From Candidatus Omnitrophota bacterium (GTDB lineage: Bacteria > Omnitrophota > Gorgyraeia > Gygaellales > Profunditerraquicolaceae): a DNA stretch of 10,342 nucleotides. The first letter of the stretch is position 1; each line of letters begins with the position of its first letter. Location: positions 1-10,342 of the forward strand of contig JAHKBC010000227.1 of NCBI GenBank assembly GCA_018825725.1. The letters run 5' to 3'. Below, in pieces: positions 282 to 6,042 of this stretch. The notes under the pieces are model-generated. The model had not been told where the DNA came from. It ran no database searches and saw nothing but the letters and a program-made list of their open reading frames with translations. The position numbers were made by a program, and so were the translations under genes.

Positions 282-1850
282 TTAGCCGTTATCCTGCTTA
301 TTATTTAACTGACGCGAAAAATAACCGTCGGTAAATCCGTCAAGTAAAGCAGTGATCTCTCTAAGCCTCAGTTCCTTATCAAATCTCTTTTTTCGCTCAT
401 CTAAGGACAAACCCTCTAACTCCATTTTTATCCGGATGCGTTCGTAATAAAGCTTGGTTACCTCTCCTAATACATCATCTCTTAATTCCACCAGAAGGCG
501 CGAGCGTACGTCTATTGATGTCTGAGCATCTGACCAGATCAAATCCCCCAAATCCCAACTCAAACCTATATCCCAATCAACAGCATCCTTCCCCCTTCTT
601 AAGTAATCATCATCTGTTTTAATAGTAGAACCGGTTTCCCAATGCCATAAATCAGTAAGGTCGCGGTTTAAACCAACGCTCACATCAGGAAGCCACGCCT
701 TTCGCGCTGCAAGCCTTCTCCAGTTCTTTATTTTATCCATTCCCACTTCAGCATAATCAATTGCCGCCTTCTGCACCTTCTGTATATCCGGCTCATCCTG
801 GAAATAATCGACTAACGTTAAAATCTTGTCCGGCAAATTACTTGCTTTGGCTTTAAATAAGCCACTATCGCAAGCCGCATAAATATTATTCTCCTTGTCT
901 ATTGCCAGTTGCCTTATATCCTTGGCTATTAAGCGCATTGAACGCTCATACCACCTATCTTCAATATGCTCAAAGATTGCGGAATCTGAAACCGCAAACA
1001 AACTATTCTGGTCTTCAACCAACAGATATCTTACATTTCGGTTAAACATCCCGTAAAGCGAAACCTCCTCCCAAACCTTGCCGGCATCAATGCTCTTAAA
1101 TATACCTTGAGGGCCAGCCAAATAAATTATCCCGGGGTTAACGGGATTAATTACTACACAGCTTACCCTGCTTTCCTGTCCTTGTTCATCGGTTTCAAAA
1201 AACTGGCCATCTAAATCTTCTTCCGTGTGCTTGGCACCAAACCAGCTAAAACACTTCTCCCACCCTCCCTGGCCAAGATCAGATTTAAATACTCCATTTA
1301 TGCCGCTAACATAGATAATTCCCTGGCCTTGCGGATTATAGGCAATATTTGAAATCTGTCCGGCTGGCAAACCTTGACGCTCTTTAACGAATGTCCTTCC
1401 GCTGTCTCTACTCACAAATAATCCGCTCTGCGTACCCAGATAAACGTAATCCCCGAACGCCAGCACTGTCCAACAGTTATTTTCCTGATCATTCTTACCT
1501 TTAAATATTCTCTGCCATCTTTTACCTCTATCAAAACTAGCGAATAAACCACTGGAAGTTGCAGCATAAATACAGGCTTGTCTGTCTTTATTATTAGCCA
1601 ACCGGTTTATTTTTACGTCTCGGCCAGGGATAGAAAATACAACTCTCCACTCCTGCCCGCCATCAGTAGTCTCTAATACTGAATTCTCTTTTGCCATATA
1701 TATGAGTTTGGTACTTCCCTCGGGTAACAAAAGCGCGCTGACATCTACATTTTCCCTTCCGATATCTTTCCACTCCGGCTCTCCGGCAAAAACTGTGCAA
1801 TAAGCTGCCAGAAATAATCCTATTGCTACTGCCACTAATACCCTCTTCAT
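282..1850 (-). CDS. Secreted BNR/sortilin-like beta-propeller protein with a half-TolC-like C-terminal region
   Basis: The 522-residue product begins with a signal peptide (basic MKR, hydrophobic 4-20, V-F-A before a likely cleavage near 22/23). Residues about 25-335 carry repeated Asp-box-like signatures of photosystem-assembly/sortilin/BNR propellers: TTDGGQEW (61-68), SFDRGKRW (105-112), SRDSGRTF (147-154), SIDAGKVW (253-260), and a degenerate one near 189-198. Residues about 353-522 differ: two short beta-like segments (PDVSVGL near 389 and DIGLSWDLGDLIW near 427) precede a long helical stretch (about 440-512) with an LREITALLDG...GYFS ending. This looks like one half of a TolC-type outer-membrane efflux repeat. 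The start is supported by a strong purine-rich ribosome site (GAGGGGGT) just upstream. I infer an export- or envelope-associated role. The ligand is unknown, and no catalytic residues are recognisable. Confidence 0.85.
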   Translation of the reverse strand: MKRVLVAVAIGLFLAAYCTVFAGEPEWKDIGRENVDVSALLLPEGSTKLIYMAKENSVLETTDGGQEWRVVFSIPGRDVKINRLANNKDRQACIYAATSSGLFASFDRGKRWQRIFKGKNDQENNCWTVLAFGDYVYLGTQSGLFVSRDSGRTFVKERQGLPAGQISNIAYNPQGQGIIYVSGINGVFKSDLGQGGWEKCFSWFGAKHTEEDLDGQFFETDEQGQESRVSCVVINPVNPGIIYLAGPQGIFKSIDAGKVWEEVSLYGMFNRNVRYLLVEDQNSLFAVSDSAIFEHIEDRWYERSMRLIAKDIRQLAIDKENNIYAACDSGLFKAKASNLPDKILTLVDYFQDEPDIQKVQKAAIDYAEVGMDKIKNWRRLAARKAWLPDVSVGLNRDLTDLWHWETGSTIKTDDDYLRRGKDAVDWDIGLSWDLGDLIWSDAQTSIDVRSRLLVELRDDVLGEVTKLYYERIRIKMELEGLSLDERKKRFDKELRLREITALLDGFTDGYFSRQLNNKQDNG

Positions 1851-1913: not shown

Positions 1914-2045
1914 ACATCTAAGTTATCTGCCCTACCGACAGAATACTGCCAATATGACTTATGTGCTTAATTAAATAGACGTAAAAGTTTCAAGAATCTA
2001 ACGCATTATTTTCTTTAAGGTATGGGATTAACTTCGAGAGGAATA

Positions 2046-2478: not shown

Positions 2479-4680
2479 TTATCTGTCTAGCGACAATATG
2501 TCTTCTTTCACTTGGGCGTAATCATTTGTATCAACCTTGCTATATATCTCCTGGCTAAGCCTGAGATATTTCTTAGCTTTTACTTTCTGGCCTTTAAACT
2601 TATAAAGCTCAGCAAGATTGTAATATATCGAAGCCTTTTCTAATGGAGCCTCGATATTTTCAGTAATTTCAAGCGCCTGACAGAAATACTTCTCTGCTTC
2701 AAGCTCACTGCCTAATTCCAAATACAATTCGCCAAACATACTGTAATCTGAAGCAATATTTGGCAGGTTATTATGCGCCAGGTCTATCTTTAAACCCCGG
2801 GCGTAACACTCCAAGGCCTTCTGATATTCCTTCTCAAATAAATACAATTCGCCTTGATTAAAATAATAATCACTTAATTCATCTTTGGCTTTCAGGCTAG
2901 CGAATAACTTCAGGCTTTTATTGTAAAAGGTCCTGGCAGCCTTAAAATCATCCTTATTACTGAATAAAAGGCCTAAATCAAAATAATCACAGGCGAGATT
3001 ATATCTATGATCGGCCTTATGGGATCTTTCGCTATTAATTTCAACACTTTTAGTTAACAACTCTATTGCCGCATTATCATCATCCTTATCCATATACCAA
3101 AGCGCTAATCGGCGTAGGCTTACTGCCTCATTAAGCCTATCTTTATTGTCCGTACTCAAAACCAAGGCCTTGTCGTAAAACTCTTTGGCCTTAGGATAAT
3201 CTCCTTTATCATGGAATATTCTACCGGCGCCTATATACGCAGAAGCCAGCATTTTTTTATCACCTTTTTTCTGGCTATAAATTATATATTCAAAATATGA
3301 TGACAGGGCCCGGCTAAGCATGCCCTGCCTCTGGTAAGCCTGGCATAACAGAGGATACGCAGGTAGAAAATCCGCAGCCTTGCCAAGAATCTGATTACAA
3401 CTTAGAACAGCTTCTGCGTTTCGTCCTTGAGCTAAATGTCCTCTTGTCTTGACAATTTCCAAATATCCCCTGGGATTAACGGCATTAAAATAGACAGAGA
3501 AAATTAAGATTAAAATAGCCGCTCCCGAAGCAACTAAAATACTTTTGACCTCTCTTCTCTTGGAAACAATGAATGTTTTAGCCCGAGGCAGAATCTTTTT
3601 TTTCGGTAAACTAAAAAAAATAAAACTCGGATCGCCGTAGAGTATATAGTTTGCCCATAATACTGAACTGCCGGATGAATTATGGAGTAATTTTAGTCGC
3701 GCCCGGCGCACACATTCACCGACACAATGCGCATGCAGAAGGTATGTATAAAATTCTCTGGCAAAGATTAAGCCGAATTCATCGCGTATTTTGCAGGCCG
3801 CGCCCAGATAGTGCCGTGACCCTGAAAATAAGAAAGCCGAAGCCAAGCCATACACCTTCTCATGATAATTGAAGGAAGGGCTAAGGCTTGACTCTCTGGC
3901 TGACTGACAGGCATTAGAAAAAATCAGGCTGGGCATGGGTAGCGCCTCCCCCATCTTAAGGATATCCCTTACCGTAAACCTGGCATCGATTAAAGACCAT
4001 CCGGTATTCTGGGGATTATCAGGATCATATTCGCAATGTCCGGCGAAATGTACTATGTCGTAATCTCTTAGATTTTTCTTGATATATATTGAATCAACAC
4101 TGGTGGATTTAAAATCAATATTAACTTTTTTATTCCAGGATTCAAACTTAGCCTTGATTAATGAACCTTCTGTGTATGCCGATTTTAAATCTCCGGTTGG
4201 ATTAGCAATAATCAGCATCCTTAATTTTTCCTGGAAGCTGCGGTAAATAGACAGATTCCCCTGCCTTCTGGTATTAATCAGCCTGCCCAGATTAAACCTT
4301 AAACCAAGGAATTCCGAGCCATTTGAAATAATCTCCCACGGTATACCGACCAATTCCTCGTCAATGGAAAGTATCAGGTGGCGCGCATTTGTTGAGCTCA
4401 ACTTATCCTTGACTTGCCTGGTTAACAAATTATCCCAAAGTAATTGCCCTATATTCTTAAAAGCCTTAAAACTTTCCGGGTCCAATTCTCCTTTTTTATC
4501 CGCTTTATTCAGTAAATGCGCGCTTTCCTGGCATAATACGGCTAGTTCATTCCAGGATACAGAGCGTTTACTGTAGTTCCTGACAGTCGAGATAAACTCA
4601 CCTGCCTCAAAGAGGCTCATCTTGAGCTCATTATTGCCCTTAGATACCTCGAGAACCAACATATTACCCCGTGCGTCCAT
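2479..4680 (-). CDS. Membrane-anchored CHAT-domain cysteine protease with C-terminal TPR repeats
   Basis: The 733-residue protein has an N-terminal region (1-95), then a CHAT (caspase/separase-type, clan CD) domain at about 96-356. The expected catalytic pair is visible: His215 in VHFAGHC (211-216; GHC instead of the common GHG) and Cys258 in FSNACQSA (254-261). The ending LWANYILYGDPSF (341-353) is typical of CHAT. A basic stretch (360-379, many K/R) precedes one transmembrane helix at about 380-400. From 405 to the end there are roughly eight TPR motifs; the clearest begin near 479, 519, 562, 603, 643 and 683, about 40 residues apart. The positive-inside rule places CHAT in the cytosol and the TPRs outside. 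The gene starts 5 bp after the anti-sigma-like gene, implying translational coupling. The first ATG lacks a clear ribosome site, and the ATG at codon 7 has GGGG before it, so the start is uncertain by six residues. Substrate is not known. Confidence 0.93.
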   Translation of the reverse strand: MDARGNMLVLEVSKGNNELKMSLFEAGEFISTVRNYSKRSVSWNELAVLCQESAHLLNKADKKGELDPESFKAFKNIGQLLWDNLLTRQVKDKLSSTNARHLILSIDEELVGIPWEIISNGSEFLGLRFNLGRLINTRRQGNLSIYRSFQEKLRMLIIANPTGDLKSAYTEGSLIKAKFESWNKKVNIDFKSTSVDSIYIKKNLRDYDIVHFAGHCEYDPDNPQNTGWSLIDARFTVRDILKMGEALPMPSLIFSNACQSARESSLSPSFNYHEKVYGLASAFLFSGSRHYLGAACKIRDEFGLIFAREFYTYLLHAHCVGECVRRARLKLLHNSSGSSVLWANYILYGDPSFIFFSLPKKKILPRAKTFIVSKRREVKSILVASGAAILILIFSVYFNAVNPRGYLEIVKTRGHLAQGRNAEAVLSCNQILGKAADFLPAYPLLCQAYQRQGMLSRALSSYFEYIIYSQKKGDKKMLASAYIGAGRIFHDKGDYPKAKEFYDKALVLSTDNKDRLNEAVSLRRLALWYMDKDDDNAAIELLTKSVEINSERSHKADHRYNLACDYFDLGLLFSNKDDFKAARTFYNKSLKLFASLKAKDELSDYYFNQGELYLFEKEYQKALECYARGLKIDLAHNNLPNIASDYSMFGELYLELGSELEAEKYFCQALEITENIEAPLEKASIYYNLAELYKFKGQKVKAKKYLRLSQEIYSKVDTNDYAQVKEDILSLDR

Positions 4681-4685
4681 AGGCT

Positions 4686-5384
4686 TTATTTTCTAATTTC
4701 TAATACAACAGAAACCACCTTTTCTTGTAAAACATTAATTTCAATTCTGTATTTACCGATAGATACATCTTCAAAAGCTACACTGCCGGAATCTGTCGAA
4801 TAAGATTCAAGTTCCAGGGTATCTTTAAAAAGGCTAATTCTCATGCCGGGCTTTATTTTATTGATTTTTCTTTTCTTGACCGTGATATGTACATCAAATA
4901 ACTCTCCTCCCTTATTCTTTATTTTCATCTCCACTTTAACGCCCAAAAAATGCTTAAAAACTGTAATTTCATCTTTAAAATCCTTAATACTGCGGCTACG
5001 TAATACCGGCGCCGGAACAAACTCTTTGCCCCAAAGCACATCCGCGCTTGCGGTAATCATCTCCAGGACCTGTCCCTTAACTAACAATATTAACTCCAGG
5101 ATATTGCCTTGCTTCTCAGGAATTAGTTCCCGCCCCCAAACTTTCAAATCTACGGGTATTTTAACCTCCTTTATCTTATTTATGCGCATCTGCGCTGCTA
5201 ATAAACGCAAACATTCAGGGCAAGACGCAATATGTTTCTTAAAATCCAACTCTTCTCCCCGGCTTAATCTGTTCTCCATAAAACATGCTAATTCGTTTTC
5301 ATCGGGATGGCTGCCTTGCGCCAGATTTGAAGATCTCCATTTACTGTAAAGCTGCCTGATTAATTCTTCAATTTTGTTTTTCAT
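4686..5384 (-). CDS. Soluble zinc-finger anti-sigma-like protein with transthyretin-like C-terminal domain
   Basis: The 232-residue protein carries an H-x3-C-x2-C zinc-binding anti-sigma (zf-HC2/ZAS) signature at H51-C55-C58 (HIASCPEC), preceded by the usual helix with HPDENELACFMENRLS (26-41). Unlike most anti-sigma factors it has no transmembrane helix. The middle (75-130) contains an amphipathic stretch (ILELILLVKGQVLEMI, 95-110) bracketed by two similar words, WGRELIP (83-89) and WGKEFVP (118-124). The C-terminal part (about 148-232) has alternating beta-strand spacing, with GMRISLFKD and a TDSGSVAFEDVSIGKYRIEI ending typical of carboxypeptidase-regulatory/transthyretin-like folds. It sits 46 bp after the sigma gene and 5 bp before the CHAT gene, so a sigma-binding cytosolic role and possible cleavage by CHAT are inferred. 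An AGAAAGGG ribosome site lies about nine bases before the ATG. Confidence 0.85.
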   Translation of the reverse strand: MKNKIEELIRQLYSKWRSSNLAQGSHPDENELACFMENRLSRGEELDFKKHIASCPECLRLLAAQMRINKIKEVKIPVDLKVWGRELIPEKQGNILELILLVKGQVLEMITASADVLWGKEFVPAPVLRSRSIKDFKDEITVFKHFLGVKVEMKIKNKGGELFDVHITVKKRKINKIKPGMRISLFKDTLELESYSTDSGSVAFEDVSIGKYRIEINVLQEKVVSVVLEIRK

Positions 5385-5430
5385 AACAAGAAACCCTTTC
5401 TAATATAATAGACGTTTGCGCGGCTATAAT

Positions 5431-6042
5431 CTAACTATCTTCTATCTCAAAACCCTTTTTCTTAAAACAGATCTTTAGCCTCTCTACAATCCTGGCCTTA
5501 CGCATATCAACTGCCGAACGCGAAAGCCTGAGCAAATTTCTTATCTCTTCCAATCCCAAAGCCTGCTCTAAATATAATGACAGAAAAAACTGATCCGCCG
5601 TATCCAGCCGCTTTATACATTCCGATAACCTATTTAACTCCTCCTCTTTCATTACCAGTTCTTTTGTCGACGGAGCATCATCCGGAATTAACTGCCCCAA
5701 GCTCCGGTTATCATCATCCTCCTGATCAAGAGAAATAGTAGGATTTATCTTACGCAAGTAATCAATCGTTGCATTAATACAGACCTGCCTCAACCAACTG
5801 GCCAGGCTGCAACCGTTTTTACCTTTAAAACTACGCAATTTCCTGAAATCATCCTTGACCATAGACAACAGTATCTCCTGAAAAATCTCTCTGGGCATTG
5901 AAACATCATATTTTGATACGGCGCTTATCTTCAATAGATTGTAAATAGATGAGTAAATAAGGCGGGAATACCTATCGATAAATTGCTTCCAGGCTAAGGG
6001 ATTATTGGCGACGCATTTCTGAATAAAATCCAGGTCGCTCAT
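5431..6042 (-). CDS. ECF-type RNA polymerase sigma-70 family factor
   Basis: The product has 203 residues, the size of an ECF (group 4) sigma factor. Region 2 spans about 5-98: the core-binding helix has REIFQEILLSMV (51-62), and the region 2.4-like segment is SLASWLRQVCINATIDYLRK (79-98). An acidic linker (about 106-130) is followed by region 4 at about 132-190, with LEEIRNLLRLSRSAVDMRKAR (164-184) as the helix-turn-helix. No extra C-terminal domain is present. It would direct RNA polymerase to its own promoter set when free. The gene immediately downstream encodes a zinc-finger protein of anti-sigma type, the normal arrangement. There is no ribosome site before the ATG, and an extended -10 element lies directly upstream, suggesting a leaderless transcript in addition to read-through from the glycosyltransferase gene, whose stop is 32 bp away. 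Confidence 0.92.
   Translation of the reverse strand: MSDLDFIQKCVANNPLAWKQFIDRYSRLIYSSIYNLLKISAVSKYDVSMPREIFQEILLSMVKDDFRKLRSFKGKNGCSLASWLRQVCINATIDYLRKINPTISLDQEDDDNRSLGQLIPDDAPSTKELVMKEEELNRLSECIKRLDTADQFFLSLYLEQALGLEEIRNLLRLSRSAVDMRKARIVERLKICFKKKGFEIEDS

Follow-up and report, generated by a model that had tools for sequence, protein, structure and literature searches.

A membrane-spanning CHAT receptor protease may switch on competence genes through a soluble anti-sigma factor in an Omnitrophota family

A three-gene locus in an uncultured bacterium of the Omnitrophota appears to encode a switch for natural transformation. The window, a stretch of 10,342 nucleotides (contig JAHKBC010000227.1 of assembly GCA_018825725.1, family Profunditerraquicolaceae), carries on its minus strand, in this order, genes for an extracytoplasmic function (ECF) sigma factor, a zinc-finger protein and a CHAT protein with tetratricopeptide repeats (TPRs), separated by 46 and 5 nt (Table 1). 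We propose, with a probability of about 0.6, that the CHAT protein is a membrane receptor that removes a soluble anti-sigma factor and so switches on competence in this family. Gene linkage, membrane topology, promoter and regulon are supported by sequence and statistics, while sigma factor binding, cleavage, the cut site and the signal are the parts that we infer.

The analysis confirmed the three genes and showed that they keep close company in relatives. The genome records surveyed were metagenome-type assemblies (metagenome-assembled genomes, MAGs), which are incomplete (81% complete for the source genome), and were taken in listing order; they comprise 285 genomes of the phylum, including 51 of the window's family. 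A scan of genomes with a zinc-finger protein profile gave 45 loci, 44 labelled Omnitrophota or Omnitrophica and one Planctomycetales, and in 43 of these the three genes were consecutive on one strand. With stretches from further genomes added, and duplicates removed before counting, the trio was contiguous in 75 of 84 distinct loci (median gaps 39 and 6 nt), which is far beyond chance. The other nine were six contig ends, two start miscalls and one sigma gene outside the stretch read. We thus rejected as exceptions the six loci at contig ends, L069 and L073 (start-codon miscalls) and L034/L081, apparently 'without sigma', where the sigma gene exists beyond the stretch read. At E ≤ 1e-20, CHAT was found in 60 of the 285 genomes, namely all 51 of the family, counting whole or partial genes, and nine others. 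The zinc-finger profile matched 48 of the 51 (in G225 over part of its length), and in the remaining three CHAT was also only partial. The CHAT gene of G098 has an internal stop codon, and the source genome has only one CHAT match. The record titled Planctomycetales (L010) has a typical Omnitrophota trio and is probably a mislabelled MAG.

The sigma factor passed the curated TIGR02937 sigma70-ECF cut-off (71.6 bits, cut-off 42.9), and its matches to Pfam region 2 and region 4 were both below their cut-offs. TATAAT was present in 46 of 72 sigma-upstream regions, compared to 10.5 expected from base shuffles. The feature common to these regions is a housekeeping extended -10 element only a few nucleotides before the start codon, which suggests that the sigma transcript is nearly leaderless.

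The zinc-finger protein scored 20.2 bits against zf-HC2, just below the Pfam cut-off of 22.2. Its N-terminal domain contains His51, Cys55 and Cys58, which were kept in 78 of 82 homologues (those longer than 140 aa, counted among the matches listed). His26, the likely fourth ligand, is replaced by Cys in 8 relatives, so that His or Cys occupies this position in 78 of the 82. The protein therefore has the H-x3-C-x2-C pattern and upstream ligand of a zinc-binding anti-sigma factor (ZAS). The model of a relative has beta strands in the C-terminal domain. Hydropathy windows revealed no conserved membrane helix in the 82 proteins; borderline windows (1.5–1.7) occurred in six, three in the zinc-finger helix, two near residues 91–94 and one near 221. 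We consider it very likely that this protein is the anti-sigma factor. Arg129 is kept in all 82, including the proteins of L072 and L074, which have lost the zinc-ligand set. The residues around it vary (VLRSR, ALRGE, VLRTN, AFRDV, AYRGA, TLRNG), and the one that follows it is usually small.

The CHAT protein is predicted to be a protease with a single membrane helix. The set compared comprised 156 proteins: that of the window, full-length locus proteins (above 690 aa) and the best 119 of 945 other homologues. His215 and Cys258 were invariant throughout, as they were in 15 diverse homologues. A hydrophobic 19-residue window above 1.6 on the Kyte-Doolittle scale lay at the expected place in 152 of the 156, the other four reaching 1.54–1.60. 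In the window's protein TPR matches began after about residue 415. The 15 residues before the helix held on average 5.7 Lys or Arg, compared to 1.4 after it, with the N-terminal side richer in 155 of 156 proteins. Under the positive-inside rule, the basic flank of a helix faces the cytosol. The CHAT domain is thus predicted, with high confidence, to be cytosolic, and the TPRs to lie outside. Independent support for this topology comes from distant relatives of other families, which exchange the outer part and keep the core. G138 (two copies) and G053 retain CHAT and the helix, with F5/8-type-C domains replacing the TPRs; the receptors of L070, L071 and L072 have two such outer domains (one seen in the truncated L072). 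Carbohydrate binding outside the cell is the usual role of F5/8-type-C domains. The outer part of G129 is longer and TPR-rich, and the G050 protein (412 aa) ends soon after the helix. Since the protease core is constant while the outer part is exchangeable, we read the protein as a receptor. The original prediction, made from the letters of the window, had described a tightly spaced trio in which an ECF-like sigma factor is paired with a zinc-finger protein that lacks a membrane helix, a His215/Cys258 dyad, and CHAT inside with the TPRs outside. Relatives bear out these points, the topology as a prediction, and show that the linkage is conserved. Two of the refuting outcomes that it named, absence of linkage and CHAT outside, were looked for and did not occur.

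Which bond might the protease cut? Foldseek placed the CHAT model nearest to Craspase TPR-CHAT (8d9f, E 3.6e-12) and separase, and also matched DdvA. The residue 42 positions beyond the catalytic Cys is Asp300; all 15 diverse CHAT proteins have it, and its conservation across the set of 156 is 97% or higher. We take it to occupy the position of separase Asp2151, judging from this spacing and separase numbering and not from an alignment. Separase was not among the matches in a sequence search of solved structures, so the S1 aspartate was compared through papers. Separase Asp2151 reads a P1 Arg, its Craspase counterpart being Lys670 (PMC9729208), and the clan CD proteases separase, gingipain R and paracaspases cleave after Arg (PMC4626109, PMC4357240). 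Because of this preference, the conserved Asp300 and the invariance of Arg129, it is reasonable to predict that CHAT cuts behind this Arg. We think it probable that CHAT cuts the zinc-finger protein, and we name Arg129 as the site tentatively, at less than even odds.

Table 1. Features of the window, with positions counted from its first letter.
Feature	Position	Strand	Basis
ECF-type sigma factor, 203 aa	5431..6042	-	TIGR02937 E 5.5e-20, above cut-off; first gene of the trio
Soluble zinc-finger protein, probable anti-sigma factor, 232 aa	4686..5384	-	zf-HC2 E 6.5e-4; 185 homologues; conserved columns
CHAT receptor protease (predicted), 733 aa	2479..4680	-	PF12770 E 8.5e-34; 51/51 family genomes, some partial
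Cytosolic CHAT domain (predicted)	3631..4452	-	profile match, residues 77-350; invariant dyad
Catalytic His215 (predicted)	4036-4038	-	invariant 156/156
Catalytic Cys258 (predicted)	3907-3909	-	invariant 156/156
Asp300, candidate S1 acidic residue	3781-3783	-	conserved
Membrane helix, residues ~380-398	3487..3543	-	basic flank on CHAT side
Outer TPR region (predicted), residues ~410-720	2521..3453	-	TPR_12, six stretches
Arg129 codon, possible P1 residue for cleavage by CHAT (VLR^SR)	4998..5000	-	invariant 82/82
Predicted housekeeping extended -10 (TGCTATAAT), 6 nt before sigma start codon	6049..6057	-	TATAAT in 46/72 upstream regions
Putative feedback promoter GTTAGATTATAGCCGCGCAAACGTCTATT, between sigma and zinc-finger genes	5407..5435	-	no mismatch to motif
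Second putative sigma-dependent promoter GTTAGATTCTTGAAACTTTTACGTCTATT	1974..2002	-	no mismatch to motif
Secreted BNR/Ycf48-like protein, probable regulon member	282..1850	-	motif upstream; follows trio in 27/75 loci, including the window

A two-part, ECF-like consensus, GTTAGATT-N13-CGTCTATT, first came to light in front of the BNR gene, which lies behind the trio in 27 loci, and then before the zinc-finger gene. With up to 2 mismatches, it lay within 110 nt of the zinc-finger start in 66 of 75 loci (median distance 20 nt) and in none of 50 shuffles of each region; in the other nine loci it was missing there. The spacer is one base longer in the divergent loci L045 (site at 2757), L064 and L073, where the sigma factor may tolerate or prefer this length. 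Genome-wide, sites with up to 1 mismatch were counted against the reversed pattern as control. The 51 family genomes held 477 sites compared to 12 for the control, with at least one in 50 of them and a median of 9. In G000, with up to 2 mismatches, there were 11 sites compared to 2. Two or more sites occurred in 55 of 60 CHAT-bearing genomes and in 5 of the 225 others (Fisher 8.7e-47, related genomes being treated as independent). The consensus is probably the promoter that this sigma factor would recognize. We rejected control of the sigma factor's own transcript by the motif as a general rule, the upstream regions being mostly of the housekeeping extended -10 type. An identical pair of sites, 988 bases apart, occurs in contig C16 of G149 and contig C35 of G166, which belong to different families, and is either a mobile element or a case of misbinning.

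The genes behind these sites point to competence. The sample comprised 87 of the sites listed, additional to those read earlier, from 10 genomes (nine of the family, including the source genome, and G143); G236, G205, G140, G259 and G235 were listed and sampled only in part. An open reading frame (ORF) of at least 45 aa began within 300 nt behind 80 of the sites, and seven had none. Profiles identified ComEA (9), SpoVG (7), RecA (6), YifB/ComM (6) and RadC (1) among the 80, together with REP transposase (10), ORF6N (10), DNA methylase (2), and DinD, Vsr, Cas3 and TcmP (1 each). The genes comEA, comEC, dprA, comM, recA and radC are core natural-transformation genes. A site precedes comEA in 9 of the 10 genomes, and in eight of the genomes read comEC follows about 1 kb behind it on the same strand (G000, G108, G120, G149, G089, G245, G273 and G210). 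In seven genomes the spoVG site is followed on its own strand by dprA: G108, G149, G089, G143, G273, G000 (where the site has two mismatches) and G120 (3.2 kb off). ComEC was found in 9 of the 10 genomes and DprA in all 10. The order site-comEA-comEC was read in L128, L165, L220 and L227, and site-spoVG-aroK-dprA in L172, L189, L203 and L132; in L172, L189 and L203 the gene after dprA is topA (aroK and topA were named by eye). Sites thus stand before comEA/comEC, dprA and recA, as predicted for a competence regulator, and the sigma factor very probably controls competence genes. RecA and YifB are known as targets from relatives only, because the window's own incomplete assembly gave matches below the cut-off.

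Two further groups of genes carry the promoter. The BNR/Ycf48-like protein has a TolC-like C-terminal part by eye, and a gene of G143 appears related by eye without the BNR part; it is possible that the protein acts at the outer envelope in DNA uptake. Mobile or defence genes follow the promoter within about 120 nt in L156, L166, L170, L171, L194, L196, L204, L206, L207 and others. REP-type Y1 transposases and ORF6N genes recur among them, and toxin-antitoxin-like, methylase, Vsr and Cas3 genes occur singly. Mobile and defence genes thus appear to have attached themselves to the competence switch.

We propose that these parts would work together as follows. The operon would be read from a housekeeping promoter, and the zinc-finger protein would hold the ECF sigma factor inactive. 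The TPR part, outside the inner membrane, would sense a signal and act on CHAT, as in a one-component receptor. Cytosolic CHAT would then cut the zinc-finger protein, perhaps after Arg129, freeing the sigma factor to use GTTAGATT-N13-CGTCTATT before comEA-comEC, spoVG-aroK-dprA, recA, comM, radC and the BNR gene. From the internal promoter, the sigma factor would also drive the genes of its own anti-sigma factor and of CHAT, and this feedback would make the pulse self-limiting. A wider form of this idea, which we hold to be somewhat less likely than not, is that of a receptor family (CHAT, helix and swappable sensor) that signals by cutting a soluble anti-sigma factor at one invariant Arg, with competence as the output in one lineage and, where the outer domains are of the carbohydrate-binding type, other regulons elsewhere. 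The F5/8-type receptors of L070, L071 and L072 probably run another regulon. In L070 a site lies upstream of a large, secreted-looking protein beside sigma.

Several observations weigh against the proposed switch. Only 29 of the 80 target ORFs are ComEA, SpoVG, RecA, ComM or RadC, with SpoVG counted as the head of the dprA operon, and the rest are mobile, defence or unknown genes. G143 (L234–L241) has eight sites, including ones at comEA, recA, comM and spoVG, and no sigma, zinc-finger or CHAT gene was detected there; the missing trio is either an assembly gap or a diverged switch. Site counts are 1 in G037 and 0 in G225. No competence gene lies behind a site in the stretches read from the F5/8-type relatives, and L072 has a one-mismatch site upstream of sigma itself. 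The structure models, which are of fused chains and as such cannot prove contact, give further points. The fused sigma/zinc-finger model (predicted local distance difference test score (pLDDT) 90.5; predicted template modelling score (pTM) 0.77) is at most suggestive of binding. It matched sigma chains, including those of the sigma:anti-sigma entries AlgU-MucA and SigW-RsiW, at root-mean-square deviations of ~13–17 Å, too large to show docking of the pair. RNA-polymerase-bound sigma factors also ranked high, and the VIA rows mostly cover sigma and the beta domain. In the zinc-finger/CHAT model Arg129 lies in a short, confidently modelled helix-turn and not in a disordered loop (block pLDDT 94; 84 in the sigma/zinc-finger model), and Phe204 (82 of 82) and Glu191 (81 of 82) are as invariant as Arg129. 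For these two reasons Arg129 may have a structural role instead of being a cut site.

The same circuit could also run without cleavage of the anti-sigma factor, with CHAT reshaping the zinc-finger protein or cutting another substrate, and with the zinc site sensing redox state or metal. Soluble ZAS anti-sigma factors work by conformational change, mostly under oxidative stress (PMC8999054), and both the retention of His51, Cys55 and Cys58 in 78 of 82 proteins and the ordered modelling of Arg129 are consistent with this. The catalytic dyad is nevertheless invariant, the two members that lack the zinc ligands still keep Arg129, and in the nearest studied case a CHAT protease adjacent to a sigma factor does cut the inhibitor (PMC10028731). 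We therefore regard a circuit without cleavage as unlikely, although it is the strongest of the alternatives.

The regulon could instead be a response to DNA damage or stress, in which ComEA and ComEC are passengers, given that the targets include RecA, RadC, Vsr, transposases and a protein resembling DinD, and that LexA was found in only 3 of the 10 genomes. This fits less well with the comEA site in nearly every genome sampled, the comEC gene behind it, and dprA and comM, which are transformation genes; repair and uptake also overlap in known competence regulons (PMC11708029). We judge a damage response to be somewhat less likely again. Finally, CHAT might serve to shut the system down. Produced along with the anti-sigma factor from the promoter that sigma itself uses, it would stop the response by degrading sigma or some other factor, as placement of the feedback promoter before both genes would allow. 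The two genes also closely follow sigma and its housekeeping promoter on one strand, and a swappable outer domain would be odd for a pure timer. A shut-off role seems improbable, and competence controlled by removal of the anti-sigma factor remains our preferred reading.

How does this locus compare with known systems? In the RseA/DegS/RseP system an outside signal leads through proteolysis to release of an ECF sigma factor, and RseA-type inhibitors are membrane proteins. The order of events proposed here is the same, but the Omnitrophota inhibitor has no conserved helix in 82 proteins, which is not what an RseA-type membrane anti-sigma factor would have, and it is the protease itself that spans the membrane. 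The Csx29-Csx30-CASP-sigma system of type III-E (Craspase) also groups a CHAT protease with a sigma factor and the inhibitor of that sigma factor, which the protease cuts (PMC10028731). In Craspase, however, the TPRs precede CHAT, the protease forms a complex with Cas7-11/gRAMP, its activator is RNA, and Lys670 replaces separase Asp2151 (PMC9729208). At the Omnitrophota locus CHAT is followed by a helix and then the TPRs, the inhibitor is a zinc-finger protein, and no CRISPR was seen; visual inspection of the 22 recurrent neighbour families listed, which were not profile-scanned, revealed no recognizable cas gene. We rejected membership of type III-E CASP/Csx29 because of the domain order and the membrane helix between the domains. 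Among the neighbours, a conserved protein of ~700 aa, membrane pyrophosphatase-like (named by eye), lies upstream of sigma in 39 of 75 loci and is not in the window.

DdvS of Myxococcus xanthus is an ECF sigma factor controlled by DdvA, a transmembrane anti-sigma factor with a CHAT domain (PDB 8rot, 8rw5). DdvS acts once DdvA is inactivated, by a signal reported as unknown (PMC4374960). DdvA is a single chain made up of inhibitor, helix and CHAT, and its CHAT match falls at the C-terminal end (residues 899–986 of 991), whereas here the inhibitor is soluble, the receptor is separate and CHAT precedes the helix. A DdvA-like, one-chain arrangement does not apply, since the zinc-finger protein and CHAT are separate genes in the 75 contiguous loci. 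CHAT, subtilase and carboxypeptidase occur in the gene context of ECF54, for which proteolytic control has been proposed; the group is described as having no anti-sigma factor (PMC8999054), whereas the Omnitrophota locus has a probable one. SigmaX/ComX and sigmaH of Firmicutes are likewise alternative sigma factors that command late competence genes (PMC3364868). Phylum and control differ, and the likeness is one of role. The original prediction had described a CRISPR-independent analogue of Craspase with reversed topology. The predicted topology and the neighbours named by eye agree with that description; its implied lack of precedent should be toned down in view of DdvA and the ECF54 context. 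The prediction did not anticipate a promoter dependent on the sigma factor, its feedback on the genes of the zinc-finger protein and CHAT, or a regulon for natural transformation. Among the matches listed in a literature search, mostly without subscription journals, nothing concerned the Omnitrophota trio or its regulon.

These findings link caspase-like CHAT proteases to sigma factor control outside CRISPR and provide a candidate substrate and cut site. The modular receptor design is simple and, if correct, would make a caspase- or separase-like protease a transmembrane receptor for gene control. The transposase, toxin-antitoxin, restriction and ORF6N genes under a competence-type promoter bear on how mobile genes coordinate their expression with DNA uptake. 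For an uncultured bacterial family, the analysis predicts both a competence regulon and the specific promoter sequence behind it, and the locus may be how cells of this family decide when to absorb foreign DNA.

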